Shown: positions 20,801 to 61,960 of the stretch, piece by piece
How positions within the stretch are numbered: the stretch's first letter is position 1
How the letters are laid out: each line of letters begins with the position of its first letter
Origin: Mya arenaria
Lineage: Eukaryota > Mollusca > Bivalvia > Myida > Myidae
Direction: 5' to 3'
DNA: 64,000 nt
NCBI RefSeq assembly: GCF_026914265.1
Contig: NC_069132.1
Location: 36,202,932 to 36,266,931 of the forward strand
The notes under the pieces: model-generated
What the model saw: the letters and a program-made list of their open reading frames with translations, nothing else
The model's database searches: none
Told to the model about the DNA's origin: nothing
Translations under genes and position numbers: made by a program

Positions 20801-23800
20801 CTTGGTATGTGTATTGGTCATCACCAGCAGATGAACCCTATTGATTTTGAGGTCAGTGGGTCAAAGGTCAAGGTCAGTGTGACCTTTACATGAAAAACGG
20901 TTTCCGATCAATAACTTGAGAACGCTTTGACCCAGGAACCTCATACTTGGTAGGTGTATTGGTCATGACCAGCAGATGAACCCTATTGATTTTGAGGTCA
21001 GTGGGTCAAAGGTCAAGGTCAGTGTGACCTTAACATGAAAAACGGTTTCCGATCAATAACTTGAGAACGCTTTGACCCAGGGACCTCATACTAGGTAGGC
21101 TTATTGGTCATGACCAGCAGATGAACCCTATTGATTTTGAGGTCAGTGGGTCAAAGGTCAAGGTCAGTGTGACTGTAAGCTGAAAAAAGGTTTTCTGATT
21201 GTCCATATTTTATTTAAGTGTCCAAATCCTACTAACAATTTGGCTCCCAAGGGGGCATAAATGTTTCACTAACATCTCTTGTTCTAATTACCAATACTGT
21301 TTTGTACAGGCCACAGGCATCCACGGCCCTCTACTTCAAATACAACACACAGCTCGGCCCACCATATCATGTTCTGGTGGACACTAACTTTGTCAACTTC
21401 TCCATCAAGAATAAGATTGATGTAATCCAGGGAATGATGGACTGTCTTTATGCCAAATGTAAGTTCAAGTTGATGTGGGAGTCAACTCAAGTCTTAGTGT
21501 GAGAGTGATCTACTAGTATAGGTGTCTGCCTCGCACACAAGAGGTCAATGGTTCGATCCCAACCAGTGGAATGTTTCTTGACCTCTAAAAAAGGAGGACT
21601 TTACTGGTTTCTACCCAGGAAACGGACTTGAGGGTGATTCATTTCAGCTTTCAGCTGTCTTCACAATAGAATTAAAATAAATAAGCATACAGTCATGTAA
21701 ACTCACTCAAATTTAGTAATATTGAATGTCACAGATGATTTTTTGAAACACATTTTCGAGTAGTAATTATTTTTATTGTTAAATGATGGATAGACTGGTT
21801 TTGTTTGTATCAAGTGGAATATCTGATTATTCTGATGTACTGATGATTCCTAGCTTGAAATGTATGTACCCGGTAGTTAAAAGTTCTAATCAAATTCTGC
21901 AAACTATTTGCTCATTTCTGCCACTAGTTTACAGTAAGTAAATTTTACCTTTCCCTTTGCCAATGGTTTAAAAAAAAAGTTTTATAATCTTTTTTGATGT
22001 CTGAACATCAAAGGAGTGTTGTCAGTGTGTGTATACCACGTGATAAGTTACGTCATAAATGTTACAAAATATTGCCTTCCAATGTAGCTTTCTGACGTAA
22101 TATATCACGTGGTATACACACACTGGTTGATTATAGTACCTTTTTTTTCCACTTTTGTTATTGATGGTAGTTTGTCTTGCTTTTGAGGTTAGTCAACCAA
22201 AGCCTTTTGTGTTTGTAAGAGCCCCTTTTGTCAACTGAAACAGATAAACCTGAACCACTTCTTACTGTTCTCTTATGGTGATCAAAATAAGCACAAGCGT
22301 GCATGCCCGAATCCAGTCCAGTCTTGTGAAAAAATCAGGATTTGTTTAGATTTATATATTTGCGCTTCTTTGGTGTAGTTTGAAATAACCTTCCACTTGT
22401 ATAACTTGATACATGTGTTTTGTTTGGTTCCCCAGGTATTCCGTATATCACTGACTGTGTAATGGCTGAGCTGGAAAAACTAGGGTCCAAATACCAGGTG
22501 GCAAGAAGGTAGGGTTTCAATTATATACATAAAACAGTCAGAAATTGTAAGGCAATGGGCTATTAGCAGATGTATGTATTTGTAAGACATAAATAGGCAG
22601 ATGTATGTTTTTGTAAGACATAAATAGGCAGATGTATGTATATGTTAGACATAAATAGGCAGACGTATGTTTTTGTAAGACATAAATAGGCAGACGTATG
22701 TTTTTGTAAGACATAAATAGGCAGACGTATGTTTTTGTAAGACATAAATAGGCAGACGTATGTTTTTGTAAGACATAAATAGGCAGACAAATGTATATGT
22801 AAGACATAAATAGGCAGACGTATGTATATGTAAGACATAAATAGGCAGATGTATGTTTTTGTAAGACATAAATAGGCAGATATATGTATTTGTAAGACAT
22901 AAATAGGCAGACGTATGTTTTTTGTAAGACATAAATAGGCAGACGTATGTTTTTGTAAGACATAATTAGGCAGATGTATGTTTTTGTAAGACATAAATAG
23001 GCAGACGTATTTATATGTTAGACATAAATAGGCAGACGTATGTTTTTGTAAGACATAAATAGGCAGACGTATGTTTTTGTAAGACAAAAATAGGCAGACG
23101 TATGTTTTTGTAAGACATAAATAGGCAGACGTATGTTTTTGTAAGACATAAATAGGCAGATGTATGTTTTTGTAAGACATAAATAGGCAGACGTATTTAT
23201 ATGTTAGACATAAATAGGCAGACGTATGTTTTTGTAAGACATAAATAGGCAGACGTATGTTTTTGTAAGACATAAATAGGCAGACAAATGTATATGTAAG
23301 ACATAAATAGGCAGACGTATGTTTTTGTAAGACATAAATAGGCAGACTTATGTATATGTAAGACATAAATAGGCAGACGTATGTATTTGTAAGACATGAA
23401 TAAGCAGATGTATGTATTTGTAAGACATAAATAAGCAGACGTATGTATTTGTAAGACATAAATAAGCAGATTAATGTATTTGTAAGACATAACAAAACTT
23501 GCTGGCTTGCCTGAATAAAACTGTGAATGAGTGTGTGGACTTTGTGGCTTCAATTGACCACATTCTAACAAATGTTTCTGTTCCTGAACACAAAAAGTAA
23601 TTTACTCAAGAGTCCAAATACCTGACAGGGTTCGAATTTAACTTTGAGGAGCACTCGCAAAATTTTGCGAGTGCTTTTTGAGGCAACTCGCAAAATGAAA
23701 AATCAACTTGCAATTTTATTATTTGCTTTATTCCCTTATAATATTGTCTAATTAAAGTAGATGTATATTTACACCTAAGACATATTATGAATATTAAAAA

Positions 23801-30271: not shown

Positions 30272-33200
30272 TCAGCAGCCGCAGTCCCAAACATTCCCGG
30301 ACATAGGTTTCTCATCTGAGAGCCTAAAGGAATCGGTCAACTGGGTGAAGCCGCCCTTCTCAAACACCTGCTTTATCTTGGCCGTCAAGATCATAAAGAC
30401 CGGCTTCACGTGGGTAGAGGCCAAAGCGCTTGTTTCGAAATATGGTGCGCCAAGCCGGTCTGCCAGTTCCTGAAGTCGCCATCAAATGTCGGTTAAATAA
30501 TTATGTTGGTTAAATTAACGGGGAAACACTGTCAATATACACTGTATTAAGAGTAGTGAACGCTACTGGTATAGGTATAAACAACGCTACATTATTACAC
30601 TCCCAGCCAGTCCCAGTGTGTGTATAGCACATGATAAATTATGTCATATATGCTACGTCGGTAGGCAACATTTTGCTTACAATGAAGACTTAAAACAAAG
30701 AATTTCTTTTCTTTTACTGCACCATTTTGAATGAAACAAAGTGCAGTCTATGCCGCTTAAAGAGCCCCGCCTTCGTTTTATAACCGTAGTTTGAGAAATT
30801 GATTATTTTCATCGAACACTTCGATAAAACTCTTTACCAAAATAATGTTTTGACAGTGCTCCGTCAGACGGCCGTATTGTGAAAAGGTTTGTCGAAGTGC
30901 TTTAAGAAACTAAACCCTCAATCAAACTCTAGTAAAAGACCGTACAAGCGGCGTAGACTGCGCTATGTTTCATTTAAAATGGCGAAGAAAACGCAAAATG
31001 TTGCCTTTCGACGTAGCACTTATGACGCAATTTATAACGTGGTATACACACACTGAGTCCACTATCTCCTAAAGTAATATTCACATTTTGTTTGCATTTT
31101 AGTACACCGGTGCAACTCCGGTCTTCCGTTTGTTCATATAGCATGATTATATATATGTCGGCAATGGGAATGCTTATTACTGGACTAAAAGTGAACAAAT
31201 GACATTTATATAGTCCGAAAATACAACTAACATATTGGTTATTGATTGTTTTTAATCGTCTATATTTCAAACATGTGTGTGGGAAGACCGCGTAACCATA
31301 GTAACCTGGGCACGAGAGGACGACGTACAACATTTCACCTAGTATACAACCAACATTAGACAAGGGGGAGGACGTAATTTCTATTCATGCAAACATTAAG
31401 TGAGAAAAATGTTTAATGGCAAACAAAATGGCGGATTTAGACTGAAAAGTACCGATTCATGTACCAACTTTTGCCTGGTTTTTCTTTACATTTTGAAAAA
31501 TGTATGCGTCAAGTATGTGGCGAAAAATATATTCTTCCATCGACATCTTAGTTTGGTATCATAACTTTAAAGATAAAAAGGTTATTGAACAGATTGTGGC
31601 TAAAGAGGCAATGTTTACATGTTAAACGTGTTGAATTTATCCACATTTTTTCATATTTTCTCGGCAAATATGGCATATCTGTGTATGTTGTAACTGTGCT
31701 TTCATGTATATATTCCTATTTTCCAAACCTCATGGTTATTACTCGACTGTACACGTTTCATGACCGATGTTTTGTTCCTTAACCCCCAATTTTGTTTATT
31801 GCAAGCACATTACCCACATTATTTTTGAAATGCAAACCAATTTCTGCATACTTGTTTAGCCTTGAGAGGATACGTTTTCTTTAATTCTGGGAATCGCTAA
31901 TGATCACGAGTCTTTCAGTTTGGTATGTGATGTGTATCATTTATAAAGTCAACAACTTTTTCACTTCAGGAACGGACTTTATTATGGCCCGATTTAGAAG
32001 GCGAACGAGCCTCATCATATACAGGAAATCACACAAGACCGCAGTGACAAGGAAATTCAAGAACAGAAAATGCTAGCCTGTCGCCGATGAAAAACGCTCA
32101 TTTTCTGTTATTGTAGTACCTTGTCGGGTTTTAAAACATGCGTACATGCCCATATTAACCAGAACCATTAACAAGGTCCGTCTATACTCTGGTGGCCATT
32201 TTTCACTTAACCGGAACCATACTTTAACAATATTGGTTCAGAAGATTCAGACCAAGTTTCAAAGAAATTGGATCATTACTTACTTTTCCCATCTCGAAGG
32301 TGACCACGCGCTTGTCCTTGAGATCCAACTTGTTGCCCACGATGAGTTTGACCACGTGACTTTCGCCATATTCCTCCACTTCCTTCGTCCAGCGTTCCAC
32401 GTTCTGGAACGTCTCCTGTAAAAGCAATGTGAATGATTCCTGTACCAAAGTGATCGAGTATTCTAAGTGCTACCAAGGATAACGTTCAAAAAATGAGATG
32501 CTGACTAACGAATAAAACGTTGTAAGAGTTCCCTAAAAGAATTGCGGGTGTCCTATATAATAATCACTTAACACCCTGCCTGTCCGCCTGCCGTCTATAC
32601 TTATCATGTGAAGGTTTTTGCCTCCGTTGACATTGGTTTCTTTTAAGGGTGTGCGTGTACGCACATTCACGTTTTTCATGCGGAATGAATATAATATACA
32701 ACCAACAATGGGCCGATTGCTCAGAATTTTGTTAAAGTTAACAACGTTATTAACGTCATCGTTGTTAAATTTCAAGTCAACATTGCTCTGTAAGTTTCAC
32801 ATATACACAGATGATTTGCAGTATTCCTAACAAAAGGTGAGACAACTGTTTCAGCTGTACTTGTTTTGTTTAAATATATGAGCACATCATAAATAGTTCA
32901 CCTTTAAAAGTTAACAATGATGTCGTTTAACAGGTTGTTAACTTTAACGAAGTTCTGAACAATCGGGCCAATGTCTACAAATTGGGCCCCATGCGTTGTG
33001 TTTTTAAAGCATGTACAAAGTAGTTTACGTACCAGGTCAATGCAGTTGAAGACGATTATGTTTCTGTTGAGTTCCCTGATCGAAGACCATCGTAGCACAA
33101 AATCATATATTTGTATATAAAAAAACTAACTACGTCAGTGAGGTCGAATACGACGATGACTACATGGATACTCCGACAGAAGGTTTTGGTGACTTTGTTG

Positions 33201-40235: not shown

Positions 40236-43200
40236 CCCTTTTTGTTCTGCTCACAGTATGCAGACTCAGTGTAACTATTTATATGTAATATGCATCACTG
40301 TTGGCCTACCTCACAATGTGCAAACTAAGTGTTACTATTTATATGTGATATATATATCACCGTCGGTCTGCTCACAAAGTGCAAATCCGGACTGACTTAT
40401 ATATGTAATATGCATCACTGTCGTTTGCCCCACAGCATGCAAACTAAGAATCACTTTATATACTGTAATACGTATGCATCACAGTCTGTCTGCCCCAAAA
40501 ATATACAGACCCAGAATTATAATTTATGTACATGTACTGTAATATGTATCACTGTCTGTCTGCCTCACAATAAACAGACCCAGAGTTACTATTTATATAC
40601 TGTAATATGCATCACTGTCTGTCTGCCTCACAATATACAGACCAAGAGTTACTATTTATATACTGTAATATGCATCACTATCTGTCTGCCTCACAATATA
40701 CAGACCCAGAGTTACTATTTATATACTGTAATATGCATCACTGTCTGTCTGCCTCACAATATACAGACCAAGAGTTACTATTTATATACTGTAATATGCA
40801 TCACTATCTGTCTGCCCCAAAATATACAGACCCAGAATTATTATTTATGTACATGTACTGTAATATGCATCACTGTCTATGTATCATTGTCTGCCTGCCT
40901 CACACTATACAGACCCAGCGTTACTATTTATATACTGTAATATGCATCACTGTCTGTCTGCCTCAAAATATACAGACCCAGAGTTACTATTTATATACTG
41001 TAATATGCATCACTGTCTGTCTGCCTCACACTATACAGACCCAGAGTTACTATTTATATACTGTAATATGCATCACTGTCTGTCTGCCTCACAATATACA
41101 GACCAAGAGTTACTATTTATATACTGTAAGATGCATCACTGTCTGTCTGCCTCACAATATACAGACCCAGAGTTACTATTTATGTACATGTACTGTAATA
41201 TGTATCACTGTATGTCTGCCTCAAAGTATACAGACCCAGAGTTACTATTATTTATATACTGTAATATGCATCACTGTCTGTCTGCCTCAAAGTATACAGA
41301 CCCAGAGTTACTATTTATATACTGTAATATGCATCACTGTCTGTCTGCCTCACAATATACAGACCCAGAGTTACTATTATTTATATACTGTAATATGCAT
41401 CACTGTAGGTCTGCCTCACAGTATACAGACCCAGAGTTACTATTATTTATATACTGTAATATGCATACTGTCTGTCTACCCAGAGTTACTATTATTTATA
41501 TACTGTAATATGCATCACTGTCTGTCTGCCTCACAGTATACAGACCCAGAGTTACTATTTATATACTGTAATATGCATCACTGTCTGTCTGCCTCACAAT
41601 ATACAGACCAAGAGTTACTATTATTTATATACTGTAATAAGCATCACTGTCTGTCTGCCTCACAGTATACAGACCAAGAGTTACTATTATTTATATACTG
41701 TAATATGCATCATTGTCTGTCTGTCTCACAATATACAGACCCAGAGTTACTATTTATATACTGTAATATGCATCACTGTCTGTCTGCCTCACAGTATACA
41801 AACCCAGAGTTACTATTATTTATATACTGTAATATGCATCACTGTCTGTCTGCCTTACAGACCAAGAGTTACTATTATTTATATACTTTTATATGCATCA
41901 CTCTCTGTCTGCCTCACAATATACAGACCCAGAGTTACTATTATTTGTATACTGTAATATGCATCACTGTCTGTCTGCCTCACAATATACAGACCCAGAG
42001 TTACTATTATTTATATACTGTAATATGCATCACTGTCTGTCTGCCTCACAATATACAGACCAAGAGTTACTATTATTTATATACTGTAATATGCATCACT
42101 GTCTGTCTGCCTCACAATATACAGACCCAGAGTTACTTTTTATATGCTGTAATATGCATCACTGTCTGTCTGCCTCACAATAAACAGACCAAGAGTTACT
42201 ATTATTTATATACTGTAATATGCATCACAGTCTGTCTGCCTCACAATATACAGACCCAGAGTTACTATTTATATACTGTAATATGCATCACTGTCTGTCT
42301 GCCTCACAATATACAGACCCAGAGTTACTTTTTATATACTGTAATATGCATCACTGTCTGTCTGCCTCACAGTATACAGACCAAGAGTTACTATTATTTA
42401 TATACTGTAATATGCATCACTGTCTGTCTGCCTCAAAGCATACAGACCCAGAGTTACTATTATTTATATACTGTAATATGCATCACTGTCTGTCTGCCTC
42501 ACAATATACAGACCCAGAGTTACTATTTATATACTGTAATATGCATCACTGTCTGTCTGCCTCACAGTATACAGACCAAGAGTTACTATTATTTATATAC
42601 TGTAATATGCATCACTGTCTGTCTGCCTCAAAATATACAGACCAAGAGTTACTATTTATATACTGTAATATGTATCACTGTCTGTCTGCCAGAGTTACTA
42701 TTTATATACTGTAATATGCATCACTGTCTGTCTGCCTCACAATATACAGACCCAGAATTACTATTTATATACTGTAATATGCATCACTGTCTGTCTGCCT
42801 CAAAGTATACAGACCCAGAGTTACTATTATTTATATACTGTAATATGCATCACTGTCTGTCTGCCTCAAAATATACAGACCAAGAGTTACTATTTATATA
42901 CTGTAATATGTATCACTGTCTGTCTGCCTCACAATATACAGACCAAGAGTTACTATTTATATACTGTAAGATGCATCACTGTCTGTCTGCCTCACAATAT
43001 ACAGACCCAGAGTTACTATTTATATGCTGTAAAATGCATCACTGTCTGTCTGCCTCAAAGTATACAGACCCAGAGTTACTATTTATATACTGTAATATGT
43101 ATCACTGTCTGTCTGCCTCACAATATACAGACCAAGAGTTACTATTTATATACTGTAATATGCATCACTGTCTGTCTGCCTCACAATATACAGACCCAGA

Positions 43201-44200
43201 ATTACTATTTATATACTGTAATATGCATCACTGTCTGTCTGCCTCACAGTATACAGACCCAGAATTACTATTTATATACTGTAATATGCATCACTGTCTG
43301 TCTGCCTCAAAGTATACAGAACCAGAGTTACTATTATTTATATACTGTAATATGCATCACTGTCTGTCTGCCTCACAGTATACAGACCCAGAGTTACTAT
43401 TATTTATATACTGTAATATGTATCACTGTCTGTCTGCCTCACAGTATACAGACCCAGAGTTACTATTTATATACTGTAATATGCATCACTGTCTGTCTGC
43501 CTCACAATATACAGACCCAGAGTTACTATTTATATACTGTAATATGCATCACTGTCTGTCTGCCTCAAAGTATACAGACCCAGAGTTACTATTATTTATA
43601 TACTGTAATATGCATCATTGTCTGCTTGCCTCACAATGTGAAGACACAGTCTCACTATTTATATGTAATATGCATCACTGTCCGTTTACCTCACACTTTG
43701 CAGACCCAGAGTTACTATTTGTAAGTGGTATGTATTACTGTCGGTCTGCTAACCTGGAGGCACCAATCATATGGAATATTCATCACTGTCGCTTTGCTTC
43801 ACAATATTGAGAGTTTCTATTTGTATGTGATATGCATCACTGTCTGTCTGCTCACACTGTGCACCAAGAGTTAATACCTATATGTTATATGCTTACTATT
43901 TATATGTAATATACATCACTGTCTGTTGGCCTCACAATGTGCAGACTCAATTTTAAAATTCATATGTAATATTCATCACCATTGGTCTGCTCACAATATG
44001 GATACTAAGAGTTACAAATTATATGTAATATATGCAGGCTAAGTTTTATTTTTTTATTTGAAATATGCGTCACTGTCATAGTATTAAGACTCAGTATTAC
44101 GTTTGCCTCACAATATGCACCCGAGAGTTTCTACGCATATATATATTTATCACTATTAGTCTGCTCACAATATGGAAAGTTTCTATCGATGTTTAGTATG
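40236..44200. repeat. Satellite 1: 63/66-bp tandem array, ~55 copies
   Basis: The core unit reads ATGCATCACTGTCTGTCTGC, CTCACAATATACAGACCCAG, AGTTACTATTTATATACTGT, AAT. A 66-bp variant has an extra TTA. GTCTG and CAGAC form a short hairpin in every unit. Units at both edges are diverged and closer to the satellite 2 unit. Because 63 and 66 are multiples of three, plus-strand frames stay open, including one of 1067 codons at 40607-43810 made of a 21/22-residue repeat. I regard that as a by-product of periodicity. Confidence 0.95.
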
Positions 44201-45722: not shown

Positions 45723-45828
45723 CATTTCGTGCCAATTCAATTGAACATTGCACCGATGCATCAGTATGTTGTATAGAGGCGTGTCGGGTCTGTGGCGTTG
45801 ATACAATCACTGATTTATTATTACCAAG
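45676..45828 (-). CDS. Possible extra 3' exon downstream of Rab B
   Basis: A 50-codon open stretch begins after a weak acceptor-like AAAAG and ends NDVMEWTDLGAE then TGA. Its frame would be compatible with exon 6 (phase 0). It carries no G5 motif and no lipid or membrane anchor. Most of it is missing from unit 1, where only the last ~19 codons align and the frame is interrupted upstream. It could be a third terminal exon, part of another gene, or chance. Confidence 0.2.
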   Translation of the reverse strand, partial: LGNNKSVIVSTPQTRHASIQHTDASVQCSIELARNARVNDVMEWTDLGAE

Positions 45829-46321: not shown

Positions 46322-46522
46322 TCAGCAGCTGCACTCCCAAAATGTCCCGGTGGACATCGGTTTCCCATCCGAGAGTTTTACAGGATCAGTCCTCCTGGTG
46401 AAGCCGCCCTTGTCAAACGCCTGCTTCATATCAGCCGTCATAGTAAGGAATGCCTGTTCCACGTTGGTCGAGGTACGAGCGCTTGTCTCTAGATACGGGG
46501 CGCAAAGCCGGTCTGCCAGACC
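46322..46522 (-). CDS. Rab B terminal exon a: prenylation-type CSC tail
   Basis: Acceptor gacttcag is followed by 66 codons: G5 motif ETSAR, the Rab1-like [11 protein letters not shown], a linker and the end FWECSC. A terminal CXC is the usual double-geranylgeranyl signal of Rabs. The homologous exon of gene A ends CGC. This is the distal of the two terminal exons. Confidence 0.9.
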   Translation of the reverse strand, partial: GLADRLCAPYLETSARTSTNVEQAFLTMTADMKQAFDKGGFTRRTDPVKLSDGKPMSTGTFWECSC

Positions 46523-49500
46523 CTGAAGTCACCATCACTTGTTAGTTAAATCATACGTGTTACTGGTTCTTTTATTAACAATAAAACACGTTTACACACC
46601 AAGCCAGTCCACCAGCTCCTAAAGTCGCCATAACATATTGTTTAAATTTTAATATATGTGAAACATAATCATTTTCGGGGTGTTCGGAGTATGTGTAGTA
46701 GCTGTTGGTATGGTTATCCGTTCGTTTGCATAACATGATTAAATACATTCCGGCAATGGGAATGCTAATAAATGCACGATAACTTAAAAGTGAATATGAC
46801 CAAACAGTTCTAAATTACAACTAATGCTTTGGTCATTGATCTGTATGCAATCGTCGATACTTCGGCGTTCTGGAACATGTTTGTGGGAAGACATCGTATC
46901 CACAGCAACCTAGGCACGAGAGGACAAAGAACAATATCCCACCTAGTATACAACTACCGACATTAGAACAGCACTGCCTAGCCGACCACTTTTCGGAAAT
47001 CGATCTCCTTTTTATTCTGTCCGGTGTGGGAGTAATTGGAGGATCGTGTAAAATAGTGTCATTAAAATGCTTTATGTCTTTTACTAAAGTGTTAAATACA
47101 TAAGAAATGTTGTGGGTATCTTTGGCGCTGCTTTCGATGTAAACAATCCCAAGACGGTCTGCAAGATCCTTAATGAAACCAAAAAGATATTACAATGGTA
47201 AAACAATGCAAATATCGTTTGCAGACTGAATATCTATAAATTATATTCAAGAAGGTACATAATTATATATAACATATGAGTATTCGTGCATAATTATTAA
47301 CCAGCAGCATTCTTTTTGAGTGGCCATTTTTTACTAACCGGAACCTTGATTCAGAAGAATAAGGTCAAGTTTCAAAGAAATTTGATAATTACTTACTTTT
47401 CCCATCTCGAAGGTGACCACGCGCTTATCCTTGAGATCCGACTTGTTGCCCACGAGGAGTTTCACCACGTGACTTCCGCCATATTGGTCCACGTCCTTCA
47501 TCCAGCGCGCCACGTTCTGGAACGTCTCCTGGAAAAAGCAATGTGAATAATTCCCGTACCAAAAGAGTTGAATATTACAAGTGCTACCAGGGATGACGTT
47601 CAGCAACGATATGTTTTAAGAGTAACGGTTAAAAATGTTGTAAGTGGCCGGCAAAGGAATTGTCGACGCTCTAAAGTTATAACTTATCACGATTTGTGCC
47701 AGTCTGTCTAATCGTATGACGGTTTTTACATTTGTTAGTTTCAATGGTATTTCATAATTTCATACGGAATGAATGCAACCAGCAGTCAATGTATATAAAT
47801 TGGGCGTGGCTTTTTAAAAGCGGGTACGAGGTAGTTTACGTACCAGGTCAATAAAGTTGAAGATGATCATGACTTCGTTGAACACCAATAAAAGGCCATG
47901 GTGGCACAAAATTATATAAATATATATAAGAAAACCTACCATTTCAGTGGGGTCGAATACGATGATTACTCCATGGGTACCCCGACAGAAGGTTTTGGTG
48001 ATTTTGTTAAGGGAACGAGGTAGTTTACGAACCATGTCAATGAAGTTGAAGACGATCATGACTTTGATGACCACCAATAAAATGCCATGTCGGCACAAAA
48101 TTATATAAGTGTATACAAGAAAACCTAACATGTCAGTGAGGTCGAATACGATGATGACTCCATGGGTACCCCGACAGAAGGTTTTGGTGATTTTGTTAAG
48201 GATACGAGATAGTTTACGAACCATGTCAATGAAGTTGAAGACGATCATGACTTTGTTGACCAACAATAAAAGGCCATGGTGGTTCAAAATTATATATGTG
48301 TATATAAGAAAACTAACCATGTCAGTGAGGTCGAATACGATGATAACTCCATGGGTACCCCTGTAGAAGGCCTTGGTGATCGTGTTGAAGCGCTCTTGGC
48401 CCGCAGTGTCCCACTGGAGGAGCAAGAAGACAAACGTTGGAAAAATAATATTTGTTCAATGTTTGAGAAATTATGCAACAGACATCAGTTCAGAATTGAC
48501 GCACATCTGCTTTAACAATCTTTAAAATGTTCATCATTCGCCGAATTGATATGTTATATGGGTATTAAATTTCCGTGTCTTTTTATTCAAACTAACGTGC
48601 TTCCCTTTATTTTAATTTCCGTGTGTAAGATTTATGACATAATTTACCTGCATGAGTTTCATTACCTGCATATATATATAAGAATGCAATGATGTTTGAT
48701 GTACATTATTAAAATTTAAAAAAAAACAGATTCTTTTTTATTTACCATATTGAGTTTTATGATTTTCCCATCCATGTCTAATGTTCTGATTTTCTGAAAG
48801 CAAAAACGCATGTGGTCATAAATAGGAAGTAACCCATGATTTAACAAGCATGCACTGCACTAAACTTGTCCACCTTTTCTTTAACGTTGATTGTTTATTG
48901 GTGTACTAACATTGAAATGTCTTTTACAAGTATGTGCTGTAATAATAATGATTTTTATGATATTTCAAAAATAGTTTTAATTAAAGTGCTTGTTTTAATA
49001 CCAAATGTAAGGTTCATTTACTCACAAAGTCCACTCCGATCGTGCTGATGTGATGTTCCGTGAACGTATCATCCTGAAATAAATGAGTTTGAGCGTTTAA
49101 TGATTTTTAATAAAACAACCTAACACAAGAAATACAATTTATAAAATGTGTTTTAAGTTCATAAACTCATTTTCATGAAATATATGTATATTATAAAATA
49201 AACGTATTCTACAATTTATTGAAAGTCATCTCTTTATTGGTGTGAATGTTTCATCTAGTATCCCCTAATAATATTATGCTCCCTGGGAAGTCCATATGTC
49301 CTGTTTATAACCTGCCATGCTCCCTGTGAGTTGTTTATAACCTGCCATGCTCCGTCTGAGTTGTATATAACCTGCCATGCTCCCTGTGAGTTGTTTATAA
49401 CATGTCTTGCTCCCTGGGAGTTATATATAACCTGCCATGCTCCCTTGGAGTTGTATATAACCTGCCATGCTCCCTGTGAGTTGTTTATAACATGTCTTGC

Positions 49501-52449
49501 TCCCTGGGAGTTATATATAACCTGCCATGCTCCCTGTGAAGTGTATATAACCTGCCTGAACTCCCTGGGAGTTGTGTATAATAACCTGTCTTTCTCTATG
49601 GGAGTTGTATATAGCCTGGCATGCTCTATGGGAATTGTATATAGCCTGGCATGCTCTCTGGGAGTTGTATATAACCTGGCATGCTCTCTGGGAGTTGTAT
49701 ATAGCCTGGCATGCTCTCTGGGAGTTGTATATAACCTGGCATGCTCCCTGTGAGTTGTTTATAACATGTCTTGCTCCCTGGGAGTTATATATAACCTGCC
49801 ATGCTCTCTTGGAGTTGTATATAACCTGGCATGCTCTCTGGGAATTGTATATAACATGTCTTGCTCCCTGGGAGTTATATATAACCTGCCATGCTCTCTG
49901 GGAATTGTTTATAACATGTCTTGCTCCCTGGGAGTTATATATAACCTGCCATGCTCTCTGGGAATTGTTTATAACATGTCTTGCTCCCTGGGAGTTATAT
50001 ATAACCTGCCATGCTCTCTTGGAGTTGTATATAACCTGGCATGCTCCCTGTGAGTTGTTTATAACATGTCTTGCTCCCTGGGAGTTATATATAACCTGCC
50101 ATGCTCTCTTGGAGTTGTATATAACCTGGCATGCTCTCTGGGAATTGTATATAACCTGGCATGCTCTCTGGGAATTGTATATAACCTGCCTTAACTCCCT
50201 GGGAGTTGTGTATAACCTAGCATGCTCTCTGGGAATTGTATATAACCTAGCATGCTCTCTGGGAATTGTATATAACCTAGCATGCTCTCTGGGAGTTGTA
50301 TATAACCTAGCATGCTCTCTGGGAGTTGTATATAACGTAGCATGCTCTCTGGGAGTTGTATATAACCTAGCATGCTCTCTGGGAATTGTATATAACCTAG
50401 CAAGCTCTCTGTGAGTTTTATATAGCCTGGCATGCTCTCTGGGAATTGTATATAACCTAGCAAGCTCTCTGGGAGTTTTATATAGCCTGGCATGCTCTCT
50501 GGGAATTGTATATAACCTAGCATGCTCTCTGGGAATTATATATAACCTAGCAAGCTCTCTGGGAGTTTTATATAGCCTGGCATGCTCTCTGGGAATTGTA
50601 TATGACCTAGCAAGCTCTCTGTGAGTTTTATATAGCCTGGCATGCTCTCTGGGAATTGTATATAACATAGCAAGCTCTCTGGGAGTTGTATATAACCTGG
50701 CATGCTCTCTGGGAATTGTATATAACCTGGCATGCTCTCTGGGAATTGTATATAGCCTGGCATGCTCTCTGTGAATTGTATATAACCTGGCATGCTCTCT
50801 GGGAATTGTATATAGCCTGGCATGCTATCTGGGAATTGTATATAACCTGCCTTAACTCCCTGGGAGTTGTGTATAACCTAGCATGCTCTCTGGGAGCTGT
50901 ATATAGCCTGCCATGCTCCATGGGTGTTGTATATAACCTTTTTTTCTCCAAGGGAGCTGTATATAACCTGTGTATTACCTGTCGTGCTCACAGGGAGCTG
51001 TATATAACCTGTGTATTACCTGTCGTGCTCACAGGGAGCTGTATATAACCTGTGTATTACCTGTCGTGCTCACAGGGAGCTGTATATAACCTGTGTATTA
51101 CCTGTCGTGCTCACAGGGAGCTGTATATAACCTGTGTACTACCTGTCGTGCTCACAGGGAGCTGTATATAACCTGTGTATTACCTGTCGTGCTCACAGGG
51201 AGCTGTATATAACCTGTGTATTACCTGTCGTGCTCACAGGGAGCTGTATATGACCTGTGTATTACCTGTCGTGCTCACAGGGAGCTGTATATAACCTGTG
51301 TATTACATGTCGTGCTTACAGGGAGCTGTATATAACCTGTGTATTACCTGTCGTGCTTACAGGGAGCTGTATATAACCTGTGTATTACCTGTCGTGCTCA
51401 CAGGGAGCTGTATATAACCTGTGTATTACCTGTCGTGCTCACAGGGAGCTGTATATAACCTGTGTATTACCTGTCGTGCTCACAGGGAGCTGTATATAAC
51501 CTGTTTTGCTCCCAGGAAATAATAACAGTCATGGAAGTCAAAGGTGAGATTCATGGCGCTATAACTCTTCTCCTCCGTAGAGGTGAGGTTGAGGGAAGAA
51601 GGCGTGGTTGGGGCGGGAATCGTTTGAGGCGTTTGGGTATGGGTACTTACGGCGTATCTTAGCAGGAGGTTGGACTTGCCCACACCCGAGTCACCGATAA
51701 TCAGAAGCTTGAATAACAGGTCACTGCAAAGTAATAAGAGTTTTGAGAAATGCTAAATCTAGTTAGAACATAAATTGGAACACAATAGAACAGATAATCT
51801 ATTAACCAGAATGTCATATATAGACCCATGTTGCTGAATATACGACCAATACAAACTTTCATTCGTCTATGATTATCATTTTTAAAGATCGAAATTACAA
51901 TCAAAATAAAAACAAATACGTCTAAAATTTAAAAAAGAAAATGTCGATATATTGCATACTTAAGTTTAAATGTCTTTTAAGTACCTTTTGAATGCTGTTT
52001 TAACAACTTCTTTCAGGTAAGAAGTCCTTGAATAGACTTAAAAGCGTCACTATCAATATGTGTTAATCTTAACCCATAATACTGTATAACAGTTGGTATA
52101 TATTATGGCCGCGTGATGTCATGTCTGATAACCTCTTTTGAAACAGGTTTTAGTGTACAACATAATATTTTGTCGTATACTCATACATTAATAATTTCTT
52201 ACCTATTATCCCAAAGGGTATTTCATTATAAATAACCTTAATCCATCATCGGATATTAAGTTGTTTTTAAATTCTTTGAACAATAAACATAGAAAAAAAA
52301 CATTTATATAAACTAAACTCTTACCCATCAATAAATAACTATCAAATTATAAGAACCCATCAATAAATAACTATCAGATTAAAAGATATAATAACTCACT
52401 TTTCCAATAGCCTATTGTCGTATGTTCCATTTTCAGTTTTGGTAGTCAT
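46322..52449 (-). CDS. Rab1-like small GTPase, gene B, with two alternative terminal exons
   Basis: Shared minus-strand exons: 52400-52449 (start ATG), 51651-51723, 49026-49073, 48746-48793, 48318-48413, 47397-47528. They join in phase 0 either to 46322-46522 (215 aa, CSC tail) or to 46833-47168 (260 aa, hydrophobic tail). All G motifs are intact: GDSGVGKS (27-34), switch I Thr52 in [15 protein letters not shown] (74-80), NKSD (133-136), and G5 at 162-165 (TSAR or SSAK). Neighbouring residues such as [14 protein letters not shown] and [10 protein letters not shown] place it near Rab1. Rab1-type proteins act in ER-Golgi traffic (family knowledge); the role of this paralogue is not known. Intron 2 is swollen by minisatellites, and intron 5 carries partial copies of exon 5. 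Confidence 0.93.
46571..46576 (-). promoter_or_regulatory. Candidate poly(A) signal between the two Rab B terminal exons
   Basis: The minus strand reads AATAAA, 257 nt beyond the stop of the hydrophobic-tail exon and upstream of the CSC exon. This is the position needed for an alternative last exon ended by its own polyadenylation site. Confidence 0.4.
46833..47168 (-). CDS. Rab B terminal exon b: G5 motif plus C-terminal membrane anchor
   Basis: An acceptor ending ATTAAG opens 111 codons. The first part completes the GTPase fold (DLADRLG, then G5 ESSAK). A linker with basic residues DRIKRRS leads to a dicysteine QCC, then one hydrophobic segment of about 20 residues (221-240 of the full protein, [20 protein letters not shown]) and a 20-residue polar tail ending HTDQ. 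There is no CXC or CC at the C-terminus. The predicted product would be anchored by a transmembrane helix in place of prenyl groups, with possible palmitoylation at the cysteines (inference). Confidence 0.75.
   Translation of the reverse strand, partial: DLADRLGIVYIESSAKDTHNISYVFNTLVKDIKHFNDTILHDPPITPTPDRIKRRSISEKWSARQCCSNVGSCILGGILFFVLSCLGCCGYDVFPQTCSRTPKYRRLHTDQ
47820..48252 (-). pseudogene. Tandem partial copies of Rab B exon 5 inside intron 5
   Basis: Units of ~185 bp repeat the second half of exon 5 and part of its intron: about 48127-48252, 47938-48062 and a short 47820-47872. They read on in one frame with exon 5 through 47814. Each has [17 protein letters not shown] and IVFNFID-like pieces and donor-like GT sites (one is GTAGGT), but no clear acceptor. 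Confidence 0.75.
49290..50940. repeat. 30-bp minisatellite in Rab B intron 2, ~55 copies
   Basis: The unit is CATGCTCTCTGGGAATTGTA plus TATAACCTAG with variants. The period is a multiple of three, so frames on both strands stay open (for example 385 codons on the minus strand, a 10-residue repeat such as [10 protein letters not shown]). The array is absent from intron 2 of Rab A. Confidence 0.95.
50941..51510. repeat. 41-bp minisatellite adjoining the 30-bp array
   Basis: About 13 highly uniform units with GGGAGCTGTATATAACCTGT, GTATTACCTGTCGTGCTCAC, A. It shares GGGAG-TGTATATAACCTG with the 30-bp unit, so it probably arose from that array by enlarging the unit. Confidence 0.95.
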
Positions 52450-54260: not shown

Positions 54261-57200
54261 GCCCCTATATTGGTCTGCTCACAATATGCAGACTAGAGTT
54301 TCTACGTATATGTAATATGTATCGATGTAGGTTTGCCCACAATAGGCAGACCACAGTTTCTACGTACATGTATATGTAATATGTATCGTTGTAGGTCTGC
54401 TCACAATATGCAGACCACAGTTTCTACGTATACAGTATGTATCGATGTCGGTTCGCACACAATATGCAGACCACAGTTTCTACGTATACAGTATGTATCG
54501 ATGTAGGTCTGCTCACAATATGCAGACCACAGTTTCTACGTATACGGTATGTATCGATGTAGGTCTGCCCACAATATGCAGGCCACAGTTTCTACGTGTA
54601 CAGTATGTATTGATGTAGGTCTGCCCACAATATGCAGGCCACAGTTTCTACGTATACGGTATGTATCGATGTAGGTCTGCCCACAATATGCAGACCACAG
54701 TTTCTACGTATACAGTATGTATCGATGTCGGTCTGTCCACAATATGCCGACCACAGTTTCTACGTATACGGTATGTATCGATGTAGGTCTGCCCACAATA
54801 TGCAGACCACAGTTTCTACGTATACAGTATGTATCGATGTAGGTCTGCCCACAATATGCAGACCACAGTTTCTACGTATACAGTATGTATCGATGTAGGT
54901 CTGCCCACAATATGCAGGCCACAGTTTCTACGTATACAGTATGTATCGATGTCGGTCTGTCCACAATATGCCGACCACAGTTTCTACGTATACGGTATGT
55001 ATCGATGTAGGTCTGCCCACAATATGCAGGCCACAGTTTATACGTGTACAGTATGTATTGATGTAGGTCTGCCCACAATATGCAGGCCACAGTTTCTACG
55101 TATACGGTATGTATCGATGTAGGTCTGCCCACAATATGCAGACCACAGTTTCTACGTATACAGTATGTATCGATGTCGGTCTGTCCACAATATGCCGACC
55201 ACAGTTTCTACGTATACGGTATGTATCGATGTAGGTCTGCCCACAATATGCAGGCCACAGTTTCTACGTATACAGTATGTATCGATGTCGGTCTGCCCAC
55301 AATATGCAGGCCACAGTTTCTACGTATACAGTATGTATCGATGTAGGTCTGCCCACAATATGCAGGCCACAGTTTCTACGTATACAGTATGTATCGATGT
55401 CGGTCTGCCCACAATATGCAGGCCACAGTTTCTACGTATACAGTATGTATCGATGTAGGTCTGCCCACAATATGCAGACCACAGTTTCTACGTATACGGT
55501 ATGTATCGATGTCGGTCTGCCCACAATATGCAGGCCACAGTTTCTACGTATACGGTATGTATCGATGTAGGTCTGCCCACAATATGCAGGCCACAGTTTC
55601 TAAGTATACAGTATGTATCAATGTCGGTCTGTCCACAATATGCAGGCCACAGTTTCTACGTATACGGTATGTATCGATGTAGGTCTGCCCACAATATGCA
55701 GACCACAGTTTCTACGTATACAGTATGTATCGATGTCGGTCTGTCCACAATATGCCGACCACAGTTTCTACGTATACAGCATTTATCGTTGTTGGTCTGC
55801 TCACAATATGCAGACCAATGTTTCTAAGTATACAGTATGTATCAATGTCGGTCTGTCCACAATATGCAGATCACAGTTTCTACGAATACAGTATGTATCG
55901 ATGTCGGTCTGTCCACAATATGCCGACCACAGTTTCTACGTATACAGCATTTATCGTTGTTGGTCTGCTCACAATATGCAGACCAATGTTTCTAAGTATA
56001 CAGTATGTATCAATGTCGGTCTGTCCACAATATGCAGGCCACAGTTTCTACGTATACAGTATGTATCGATGTAGGTCTACCCACAATATGCAGACCACAG
56101 TTTCTACGTATACAGTATGTATCAATGTCGGTCTGTCCACAATATGCAGACCACAGTTTCTACGTATATGTAATATGTATCGATGTAGGTCTGCTCACAA
56201 TATGCAGACCACAGTTTCTACGTATACAGTATGTATTGATGTAGGTCTGCCCACAATAGGCAGATTAGAGTTTCTACGTGTATGTAACATGTATCGATGT
56301 AGGTCTGCTCACAATATGCAGACCACAGTTTCTACGTATACAGTATGTATTGATGTAGGTCTGCCCACAATATGCAGACCAGAGTTTCTACGTATATGTA
56401 ATATGTATCGATGTAGGTCTGCTCACAATATGCAGACCACAGTTTCTACGTATACAGTATGTATTGATGTAGGTCTGCCCACAATATGCAGATTAGAGTT
56501 TCTACGTATATGTAATATGTATCGATGTAGGTCTGCTCACAATATGCAGACCACAGTTTCTACGTATACAGTATGTATTGATGTAGGTCTGCCCACAATA
56601 TGCAGACCAGAGTTTCTACGTATATGTAATATGTATCGATGTAGGTCTGCTCACAATATGCAGACCACAGTTTCTACGTATACAGTATGTATTGATGTAG
56701 GTCTGTCCACAATATGCAGATCACAGTTTCTACGTATACAGTATGTATCGATGTAGGTCTACCCACAATATGCAGACCACAGTTTCTACGTATACAGTAT
56801 GTATCAATGTCGGTCTGTCCACAATATGCAGACCACAGTTTCTACGTATACAGTATGTATCGATGTAGGTCTACCCACAATATGCAGACCACAGTTTCTA
56901 CGTATATGTAATATGTATCGATGTAGGTCTGCTCACAATATGCAGACCACAGTTTCTACGTATACAGTATGTATTGATGTAGGTCTGCCCACAATAGGCA
57001 GATTAGAGTTTCTACGTGTATGTAACATGTATCATTGTAGGTCTGCTCACAATATGCAGTTCACAGTTTCTACGTATACAGTATGTATCGATGTCGGTCC
57101 GCACACAATATGCAGACCACAGTTTCTACGTATACAGTATGTATCGATGTCGGTCCGCACACAATATACAGACCACAGTTTCTACGTATACAGCATGTAT

Positions 57201-60200
57201 CGATGTAGGTCTACTCACAATATGCAGATCACAGTTTCTACGTATACAGTATGTATCGATGTCGGTTCGCACACAATATGCAGACCACAGTTTCTACGTA
57301 TACAGTATGTATCGATGTAGGTCTACCCACAATATGCAGACCACAGTTTCTACGTATACAGTATGTATCGATGTAGGTCTTCCCACAATATGCAGACCAC
57401 AGTTTCTACGTATATGTAATATGTATCGATGTAGGTCTGTCCACAATATGCAGACCACAGTTTCTACGTATATGTAATATGTATCGATGTAGGTCTGTCC
57501 ACAATATGCAGTTCACAGTTTCTACGTGTATGTAATATGTATCGATGTAGGTCTGTCCACAATATGCAGACCACAGTTTCTACGTGTATGTAATATGTAT
57601 CGATGTAGGTCTGTCCACAATATGCAGACCACAGTTTCTACGTGTATGTAACATGTATCGATGTAGGTCTGTCCACAATATGCAGACCACAGTTTCTACG
57701 TGTATGTAATATGTATCGATGTAGGTCTGTCCACAATATGCAGACCACAGTTTCTACGTGTATGTAATATGTATCGATGTAGGTCTGTCCACAATATGCA
57801 GACCACAGTTTCTACGTGTATGTAATATGTATCGATGTAGGTCTGTCCACAATATGCAGACCACAGTTTCTACGTGTATGTAATATGTATCGATGTAGGT
57901 CTGTCCACAATATGCAGACCACAGTTTCTACGTGTATGTAATATGTATCGATGTAGGTCTGTCCACAATATGCAGACCACAGTTTCTACGTGTATGTAAT
58001 ATGTATCGATGTAGGTCTGTCCACAATATGCAGACCACAGTTTCTACGTGTATGTAATATGTATCGATGTAGGTCTGTCCACAATATGCAGACCACAGTT
58101 TCTACGTGTATGTAATATGTATCGATGTAGGTCTGTCCACAATATGCAGTTCACAGTTTCTACGTGTATGTAATATGTATCGATGCAGGTCTGTCCACAA
58201 TATGCAGACCACAGTTTCTACGTGTATGTAATATGTATCGATGTAGGTCTGTCCACAATATGCAGACCACAGTTTCTACGTGTATGTAATATGTATCGAT
58301 GTAGGTCTGTCCACAATATGCAGACCACAGTTTCTACGTGTATGTAATATGTATCGATGTAGGTCTGTCCACAATATGCAGACCACAGTTTCTACGTGTA
58401 TGTAATATGTATCGATGTAGGTCTGTCCACAATATGCAGACCACAGTTTCTACGTGTATGTAACATGTATCGATGTAGGTCTGTCCACAATATGCAGACC
58501 ACAGTTTCTACGTGTATGTAATATGTATCGATGTAGGTCTGTCCACAATATGCAGACCACAGTTTCTACGTATATGTAATATGTATCGATGTAGGTCTAC
58601 TCACAATATGCAGGTCATAGTTTCTACGTATACAGTATGTATCGATGTAGGTCTACCCACAATATGCAGACCACAGTTTCTACGTATACAGTATGTATCG
58701 ATGTCGGTTCGCACACAATATGCAGACCACAGTTTCTACGTATACAGTATGTATCGATGTAGGTCTACCCACAATATGCAGGTCATAGTTTCTACGTATA
58801 CAGTATGTATCGATGTAGGTCTACCCACAATATGCAGGTCATAGTTTCTACGTATACAGTATGTATCGATGTAGGTCTACCCACAATATGCAAACCACAG
58901 TTTCTACGTATACAGTATGTATCGATGTCGGTTCGCACACAATATGCAGACCACAGTTTCTACGTATACAGTATGTATCGATGTAGGTCTTCCCACAATA
59001 TGCAGACCACAGTTTCTACGTATACAGTATGTATCGATGTCGGTCTGCCCACAATATGCAGACCACAGTTTCTACGTATATGTAATATGTATCGATGTAG
59101 GTCTGCTCACAATATGCCGACCACAGTTTCTACGTATATGTAATATGTATCGATGTAGGTCTACTCACAATATGCAGGTCATAGTTTCTACGTATACAGT
59201 ATGTATCGATGTAGGTCTGCCCACAATATGCCGACCACAGTTTCTACGTATACAGCATGTATCGTTGTAGGTCTGCCCACAATATGCCGACCACAGTTTC
59301 TACGTATACAGTATGCTTCGATGTAGGTCTGCTCACAATATGCAGACCACAGTTTCTACGTATACAGTATGTATCGATGTAGGTCTGCCCACAATATGCA
59401 GACCACAGTTTCTACGTATACAGTATGTATTGATGTAGGTCTGCCCACAATATGCAGACCAGTTTCTACGTATATGTTAAATGTATCGTTGTCGGTCTGC
59501 TCACGATTTGCAGGCCACAGTTTCTACGTTTACAGTATATCGATGTAGGTCTACCCACAATATGCAGACCACAGTTTCTACGTTTACAGTATATTGATGT
59601 AGGTCTGCCCACAATATGCAGACCACAGTTTCTACATATACGGTATGTATCGATGTAGGTCTACGCACAATATGCAGACCACAGTTTCTACGTATACAGT
59701 ATGTATTGATGTAGGTCTGCCCACAATATGCAGACCAGTTTCTACGTATATGTTAAATGTATCGTTGTCGGTCTGCTCACGATTTGCAGGCCACAGTTTC
59801 TACGTATACAGCATGTATTGTAGTCGATCTGCCCACAATATGCAGATCAGAATTTCTACGTATACAGCATTTATTGTATGCAGACCACAGTTTCTACGTA
59901 TAAAGCACGTATTGTAGTCGGTCTGTTCACAATATGCAGACAAGAGTTTCTACGTATACAGCATTTATTATCTCGGTCTGTTCACAACATGCAGACCTGA
60001 GTTTCTACGTATATGTAATATGTATCGTTGTTGGTCTGCTCACAATATGCGGACCAAAGTTTCTACGTATACAGCATGTATCGTTGTTAGTCTGCGTAAA
60101 ATATGCGGACCAAAGTTTCTACGTATACAGTATGTATTGATGTAGGTCTGCCCACAATATGCAGACCAGTTTCTACGTATATGTTAAATGTATCGTTGTC

Positions 60201-61960
60201 GGTCTGCTCACAATTTGCAGGCCACAGTTTCTACGTATACAGCATGTATTGTAGTCGATCTACCCACAATATGCAGATCAGAATTTCTACGTATACAGCA
60301 TTTATTGTATGCAGACCACAGTTTCTACGTATAAAGCACGTATTGTAGTCGGTCTGTTCACAATATGCAGACAAGAGTTTCTACGTATACAGCATGTATT
60401 ATCTCGGTCTGTTCACAACATGCAGACCTGAGTTTCTACGTATATGTAATATGTTTCGTTGTTGGTCTGCTCACAATATGCGGACCAAAGTTTCTACGTA
60501 TACAGCATGTATCGTTGTTAGTCTGCGTAGAGTATGCGGACCAAACTTTCTACGTATACAGTATGTATCGTTGTCGGTCTGCTCACAATATGCAGGCCAC
60601 AGTTTCTATGTACAAATGTAATATGTAATGTTGTTGGTCTGCTCACAATATGCGGACCAAAGTTTCTACGTATACAGCATGTATCGTTGTTAGTCTGCTC
60701 ACAATATGCAGACCACAGTTTCTACGTATACAGCATGTATCGTTGTTAGTCTGCATAGAACATACACAGTTCCTACGTATATAGCATTTATCGTTGTTAG
60801 TCTGCTCAGAATATGCAGGCCACAGTTTCTACGTATACAGCATGTATCGTTGTAGGTCTGCCCACAATATGCAGACCACAGTTTCTACGTATACAGTATG
60901 TATCGTTGTAGGTCTGACCACAATATGCAGACCACAGTTTTTACGTATACGTAACATGTATCGTGCTAGGTCTGCCCACAATATGCCGACCACAGTTTCT
61001 ACGTATACAGCATGTATCGTTGTAGGTCTGCCCACAATATGCCGACCACAGTTTCTACGTATACAGTATGTATCGATGTAGGTCTGCCCACAATATGCCG
61101 ACCACAGTTTCTACGTATACGGTATGTATCGATGTAGGTCTGCCCACAATATGCAGACCAGTTTCTACGTATACAGTATGTATCGATGTAGGTCTGCCCA
61201 CAATATGCCGACCACAGTTTCTACGTATACAGTATGTATCGATGTAGGTCTGCCCACAATATGCAGACCAGAGTTTCTACGTTTATAACATGTATTGTTG
61301 TCGGTTTGCCCACAATATGCAGACCTGAGTTTTTACGTACATATATATGTAATATGTATCGTTGTTAGTCTGCTTACAATATGCAGACCTGAGTTTCTAC
61401 GTACATGTATATGTAATATGTATCGTTGTTGGTCTGCTTACAATATGCAGACCTGAGTTTCTACGTACATGTATATGTAATATGTAGCGATGTAGGTCTG
61501 CCCACAATATGCAGACCCGAGTTTCTACGTATATAACATGTATTGTTGTCGGTTTGCCCACAATATGCAGACCTGAGTTTCTACGTACATGTATATGTAA
61601 TATGTATCGTTGTTGGTCTGCTTACAATATGAAGACCTGAGTTTCTACGTACATGTATATGTAATATGTATCGTTGTTGGTCTGCTTACAATATGAAGAC
61701 CTGAGTTTCTACGTACATGTATATGTAATATGTATCGCTGTTGGTCTGCTTACAATATGAAGACCCGAGTTTCTACGTACATATATATGTAATATGTATC
61801 GTTGTTGGTCTGCTTACAATATGAAGACCTGAGTTTCTACGTACATGTATATGTAATATGTATAGTTGTTGGTCTGCTTTCAATATGCAGACCACATTTT
61901 CTACGTATACAACATGTATTGATGTAGGTCTGCTTATAATATTCGGACCCAGATTTTTTA
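54261..61960. repeat. Satellite 2: 56/58/64-bp tandem array, ~135 copies
   Basis: The basic unit is GTAGGTCTGCCCACAATATG, CAGACCACAGTTTCTACGTA, TACAGTATGTATCGAT (56 bp). A 58-bp form with TATGTAATATG is nearly uniform at about 57480-58560 (~18 copies). A 64-bp form with CATGTATATG lies at about 61320-61880. GGTCTGC and GCAGACC make a 7-bp stem with a 9-nt loop in most units. A ~431-bp block at 59731 is repeated at 60162. Open frames of up to 343 codons are a consequence of the period and are not genes. Confidence 0.95.

Follow-up and report, generated by a model that had tools for sequence, protein, structure and literature searches.

The stretch of Mya arenaria DNA analysed here, a window of 64,000 nucleotides, carries on its minus strand, at 52449-46322, a Rab1-like GTPase gene (gene B) in which six shared exons are followed by two alternative terminal exons, both in frame and both preceded by an acceptor of their own. 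Use of one terminal exon, here called the CSC exon, gives a product of 215 residues, and use of the other, the transmembrane exon, gives a product of 260 residues. Rabs in general are prenylated and are cycled by GDI. We consider it likely that, through its alternative last exon, gene B can yield an integral and probably tail-anchored form of a Rab1-like GTPase that is otherwise prenylated.

A preliminary description of this DNA had proposed that the two terminal exons compete for a phase-0 exon 6, and its coordinates prove to be exact (Table 1), with both open frames and both acceptors in place. The transmembrane exon comprises 111 codons and a TGA (acceptor TTTCATTAAG), and the CSC exon 66 codons and a TGA (acceptor TGACTTCAG). 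Each had also been said to restore the G5 motif at the same positions and so to complete the GTPase. Counting on the joined products bears this out, with SSAK in the 260-residue product and TSAR in the 215-residue product, each at residues 162-165; motifs G1 to G5 are all present, and both products are of the Ras type by Pfam (PF00071, 199.5 and 200.5 bits for the two). NCBIfam adds just a general small-GTPase domain, and an Rfam scan gave no matches. The ends, too, are as they had been described, CSC on one product and QCC, a hydrophobic helix and a short polar tail on the other. As judged from these motifs and profiles, gene B is a Rab gene and its transmembrane isoform is a Rab G domain with a different anchor.

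Table 1. Coordinates of the exons and associated features of gene B and paralogue A in the window
Feature	Position	Strand	Basis
Gene B exon 1	52400..52449	-	Start codon ATG, donor GTGAGT
Gene B exon 2, G1/P-loop GDSGVGKS	51651..51723	-	Splice sites CAG/GTAAGT; Pfam Ras on joined product
Gene B exon 3, switch I STIGVDF	49026..49073	-	Splice sites CAG/GTGAGT
Gene B exon 4, encoding 16 residues, missing from Mya P0008	48746..48793	-	Splice sites; alignment to P0008 and relatives
Gene B exon 5, G3 WDTAGQE	48318..48413	-	Splice sites
Gene B exon 6, G4 NKSD, phase 0 end, donor GTAAGT common to both terminal exons	47397..47528	-	Splice sites
Transmembrane alternative last exon: SSAK, linker, RQCC, hydrophobic segment, 21-residue tail	46833..47168	-	Open frame, acceptor, Dreissena P0006 tail
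AATAAA, candidate poly(A) signal for the transmembrane isoform	46571..46576	-	Hexamer, 48 bases from the CSC exon
CSC (prenylation-end) alternative last exon	46322..46522	-	Splice sites; matches deposited Mya P0008
Relic of the transmembrane exon in paralogue A, decayed, 3' half only	31239..31360	-	Alignment to gene B exon
Terminal exon of paralogue A, with a CGC end, aligning with the CSC exon	30272..30469	-	Alignment

The 3' part of gene B presents one donor and then two terminal exons, each of which has an acceptor, a stop codon and a downstream poly(A) hexamer. The coding-strand AATAAA that had been reported between the two exons is present; it starts at 46576, 257 bases past the end of the transmembrane-exon stop codon. 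A second AATAAA starts at 47016, inside the transmembrane exon, and another is found at 45819, beyond the CSC stop. Over positions -25 to -4 the transmembrane acceptor tract is 68% pyrimidine and 59% U, compared with 59-77% and 36-50% for exons 2-6 of gene B, and so resembles the tracts of constitutive exons; the CSC acceptor tract, with 41% pyrimidine and 27% U, is poor. The acceptor itself is AAG for the transmembrane exon and CAG for the remaining twelve listed for genes A and B, that of the CSC exon included. From this arrangement of signals we read the 3' end of gene B as a pair of alternative last exons, for which choice of the first acceptor would go with cutting at the first poly(A) site.

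The C-terminus of the transmembrane isoform consists of QCC, a hydrophobic segment of about 21 residues (219-239 of 260) and a basic tail of 21 residues. Over 19 residues the Kyte-Doolittle mean peaks there at 2.24 (residues 219-237), compared with a peak of 1.12 in the CSC isoform, and 19-mers with a mean above 1.4 start only between residues 214 and 227. By Kyte-Doolittle hydropathy, the sole basis of the transmembrane call, there is therefore one predicted span near the C-terminus and none elsewhere, the pattern of a tail-anchored protein. Prenylation-type cysteines, that is CC or CXC at the very end, are found in the CSC isoform and not in the transmembrane isoform, where a CC at 215-216 is followed by 44 further residues.

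Could such an exon be the product of chance? When the exon is shuffled 20,000 times at the dinucleotide level, only 27 of the versions keep an open frame. A hydrophobic stretch as strong occurs in 10 of the 232 stop-to-stop frames of at least 60 residues in the 64-kb window, the exon's own frame counted, and taken alone it does not exclude chance. Both a chance open frame and a chance hydrophobic stretch are ruled out by the match of the tail to a protein of Dreissena polymorpha, isoform X1 of LOC127874563 (P0006, 256 residues, entered as an 'uncharacterized protein'), which is 58% identical over 99% of the query and has the same architecture. The two tails share the pattern CCSN...GGxLFxVLS...VFPxxCSRTPxYRRxH. 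Aligned to Dreissena SAKECCSNLFLTCVGGLLFLVLSCCGITVFPAICSRTPAYRRFH, the Mya tail scores 149, against 27.0 +/- 5.0 for shuffles (maximum 60; 0 of 2000 reach 149), and the Dreissena span has a best 19-residue Kyte-Doolittle mean of 2.43. Because this match stands so far above the shuffles, and with Mya and Dreissena placed in different superfamilies of Myida, we conclude from the comparison that the transmembrane exon is real and is conserved across two Myida superfamilies.

The distribution of identities between the two proteins, computed with gapped columns left out, bears on what has been conserved. Identity is 104/149 over the shared exons, 15/37 over G5 and helix 5 of the transmembrane exon, 1/22 in the linker (4 gapped), 14/24 from the CC through the span (3 gapped) and 12/20 in the tail after the span (1 gapped). 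As these counts indicate, conservation falls in the linker and recovers from the CC onwards, through span and tail, and a drifting linker beside a conserved anchor and tail is the pattern expected from selection on the anchor. The G5/helix 5 part appears as the weaker point of the exon, being less conserved than the shared exons; over the same part the Mya CSC exon also has 15/37 identities with P0006. Conservation of the CC before the span suggests that the anchor was added beyond a former Rab CC terminus, and an extra CC pair is present upstream in Dreissena (FCCSAKECC). The basic, conserved tail after the span suggests a role in sorting or topology.

Among the protein matches listed, Dreissena is the only species besides Mya to have the tail. 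The main protein search scored 8000 candidates and listed the best 120; ten sequences were taken, nine of which were aligned with both gene B products, while the double-GTPase protein P0015 was kept out of the alignment and included in the tree. Of the protein searches directed at the tail, the first gave nine candidates, none at E <= 10, and the other returned P0006 only; since the method requires shared 5-residue words, distant tails would be missed. The Mya tail matched no known Pfam family and the Dreissena tail had one match (E 5.1), which is not credible. Comparison of the tail with solved structures gave four matches at E <= 10, none of them credible, the best (0.02) being with a designed protein over 15 residues. 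In Dreissena a splice switch may exist, with isoform X1 alone among the matches listed; by NCBI naming practice the label 'isoform X1' presumably implies at least one further isoform of LOC127874563.

Like canonical Rab1 and Ypt1, gene B has a G domain with G1-G5, and the best solved-structure (PDB) matches of its 260-residue product are Rab1A chains, at 228 bits, with Rab1A, Rab1B and Ypt1 on top and Rab8A at 191.6. Differences are seen, however, in the tree and at the C-terminus. A maximum-likelihood tree was calculated from 18 G-domain rows, made up of 16 of the best 120 matches and the two Mya genes, with other Rab subfamilies outside the sample. A split with support of 100/98 separates Mya A, Mya B, Dreissena X1, Mercenaria LOC123533652 and five further sequences from the canonical Rab1 sequences and from one protein each of Physella and Argopecten. 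Only 2 of the 15 inner branches are well supported, the order inside the group is weak, and the long branches flagged are those of MyaA, Physella and P0020. Gene B ends in CXC rather than CC and has a second, transmembrane end; within its group Mercenaria and four of the five further members also end in CXC, and the fifth in DSC. By these comparisons gene B is Rab1-like, in a group where every member with a species name is a bivalve; it may or may not fall within Rab1 proper.

A neighbouring paralogue, gene A (38822-30272), matches gene B in six exons and has a single terminal exon, with a CGC end. Between exon 6 and this terminal exon of gene A lies a relic of the transmembrane exon, 64% at the protein level over 31360-31247. 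Its G5 half is missing, E and P break the hydrophobic segment (best 19-mer 1.28), and one base has been lost immediately before the old stop. The relic implies that the transmembrane exon predates the A/B duplication and was then lost in A. The preliminary description had named frame breaks in related species as grounds for refutation. In Dreissena, the single relative identified, a full-length Rab carries the homologous tail intact, in favour of the description; the broken exon of paralogue A counts against it. Differences between gene B and the relic, by codon position, number 4/40, 8/41 and 9/41. With no third-position excess, coding constraint is unsupported by this comparison, as is expected if one copy is dead. 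Elsewhere in gene A, exon 3 (37314-37270) has CSLAIDY at switch I, compared with STIGVDF in gene B. The threonine normally found in switch I is therefore lacking, and gene A may represent a Rab that has degenerated or been altered. In the last intron of gene B, a stretch of 49 bases (46647-46599) matches the region around the acceptor of the gene A terminal exon at 80% identity, hinting at another decayed terminal-exon copy.

Is the transmembrane exon still used in Mya? A deposited Mya arenaria "YPTC1-like protein" (P0008, 199 residues) is identical to the CSC product at all aligned residues; it uses the CSC exon and is without both the transmembrane exon and the 16 residues of exon 4. Among the protein-search matches listed, the 260-residue protein is absent, and the Mya protein found there is this CSC form without exon 4. 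An exon that had a use in ancestral Myida and has one in Dreissena, and is now rarely or never spliced in Mya, like its counterpart in paralogue A, would agree with the exclusive use of the CSC exon in P0008, with the loss of half the exon from paralogue A, with the lower conservation of the G5 half and with the AAG acceptor. We nevertheless find such a fading of the exon quite improbable, given that gene B retains 111 open codons, an intact acceptor and the span, and that 12 of 20 residues of the C-terminal tail are kept with Dreissena. P0008, moreover, is a poor witness for exon use because exon 4 is also missing from it; exon 4 is present in eight other aligned rows (P0006, P0012, P0013, P0016, P0017, P0018, P0020 and P0044), and its absence from P0008 is probably an annotation error. 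It is scarcely credible that the gene model itself is in error, with the transmembrane exon taken from another gene or being chance sequence after exon 6. The exon is known here from genomic sequence only, but the tail recurs on a Rab G domain encoded by an independent genome, with no gap across the exon 6 junction and with conservation far above chance, and the exon itself encodes a Rab G5 motif.

The main rival to a membrane-spanning anchor concerns the way in which the hydrophobic segment is held. It could form a membrane hairpin, or a cysteine-rich anchor (QCC, SC, SC, CC) held by palmitoylation; neither would span the bilayer, and the C-terminal tail would stay in the cytosol. The protein would then be independent of GDI, with attachment partly reversible through depalmitoylation. 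In both Mya and Dreissena, cysteines occur within the segment and on its flanks, with the preceding CC conserved, and a GG pair breaks it; in Mya there are also basic residues on both sides of it. Against this, in both species the segment has the length (19-23 residues) and the hydropathy (a mean of about 1.9-2.4 over those 19-23 residues) of a single span, and a conserved polar tail is to be expected of a topogenic or sorting signal, although it leaves the side of the membrane undecided. On these grounds we regard a non-spanning anchor as rather unlikely.

In the model that we favour, in which an alternative last exon supplies a membrane-spanning anchor, both forms would be transcribed in Mya. 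Joining of exon 6 to the exon at 47168, with the transcript cut after the AATAAA at 46576, would give the 260-residue Rab. This would have a single C-terminal span, with the short basic tail on the far side of the membrane and the G domain in the cytosol, and would be inserted post-translationally, as for other tail-anchored proteins. Skipping of the transmembrane exon, with exon 6 joined to 46522, would give an ordinary 215-residue Rab ending in CSC, which would be geranylgeranylated and recycled by GDI. The transmembrane form would instead be fixed in the membrane, independent of GDI, and its switching would be limited to the action of GEFs and GAPs. Tail-anchored proteins with basic tails are often mitochondrial or peroxisomal, and by analogy a mitochondrial or peroxisomal destination for the 260-residue form may be offered as a guess. 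More tentatively than the anchor itself, we put forward as a possibility that gene B is a natural, conserved splice switch between a GDI-recycled, lipid-anchored Rab1-like GTPase and a permanently integral one, in which the basic tail after a moderately hydrophobic span could target the mitochondrial outer membrane or the peroxisome, with one gene marking two organelles.

The surrounding DNA is rich in repeats. Decayed partial copies of exon 5 stand in tandem in intron 5 of gene B (48197-48120 and 48008-47931) and in intron 5 of gene A (33378-33310 and 33199-33122), those of gene B forming a 189-base repeat that takes in the end of the real exon. Compared with exon 5 of gene B, the first intron 5 copy of gene A matches at 95.7% over 23 residues, and gene A's own exon 5 at 81.3% over 32. 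Large minisatellite and satellite arrays occupy 49302-51504, 40246-43720, 54272-61933 and 22566-23492; two of these arrays, with units of 30 and 41 bases, make up most of gene B intron 2, and an array of 63/66-base units underlies a stop-free frame of 1078 codons at 40574-43810. At about 9500-5450 on the minus strand, inspection by eye suggests a LINE-type element; it seems to include parts for an endonuclease and a reverse transcriptase, and it contains G runs.

How does gene B compare with other membrane-held GTPases? Miro/Gem1 is a small GTPase with a C-terminal transmembrane segment, and is not a Rab. In work attributed to Ossig et al. 1995, yeast Ypt1 and Sec4 carrying synaptobrevin-like C-terminal anchors were reportedly functional. 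These, like the predicted 260-residue form, are Rab1-type GTPases fixed in the membrane by a C-terminal span in place of prenyl groups, but they are laboratory fusions, whereas the anchor of gene B is natural and optional. Engineered fusions have been used to address whether Rabs require GDI cycling or merely the correct membrane location. A limited search of the open-access literature revealed no natural transmembrane Rab among the listed titles and openings of abstracts, and the word Rab does not occur in PMC9210306. SR-beta and Arl10, described in the available passages of PMC8358228 as ARF-family GTPases with N-terminal spans, resemble the 260-residue form in being small GTPases with a transmembrane segment as their membrane anchor; they differ in the N-terminal position of the span, and those passages contain no switch with a prenylated isoform.

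The closest precedent appears to be Rheb-TM of the SAR clade. According to the available part of PMC5869587, its prenylation motif is replaced by a C-terminal extension with four predicted transmembrane segments, and most Rheb-TM proteins keep the old prenylation cysteine internally. Both Rheb-TM and gene B would thus be Ras-superfamily GTPases with an anchor beyond a retained cysteine, gene B keeping CC before the span. Rheb-TM, in contrast, belongs to the Ras family, has four spans, occurs in protists and is a separate paralogue, whereas gene B is a Rab with one span, encoded by an optional last exon. Extension past a former CC end in gene B, if it took place, would parallel the presumed route to Rheb-TM.

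If our reading is true, a Rab has gained a transmembrane anchor through one added exon with the prenylated form retained, and gene B would be a step intermediate to the finished replacement seen in Rheb-TM. A natural gene that makes both forms would let the need for GDI cycling be tested on the same G domain.
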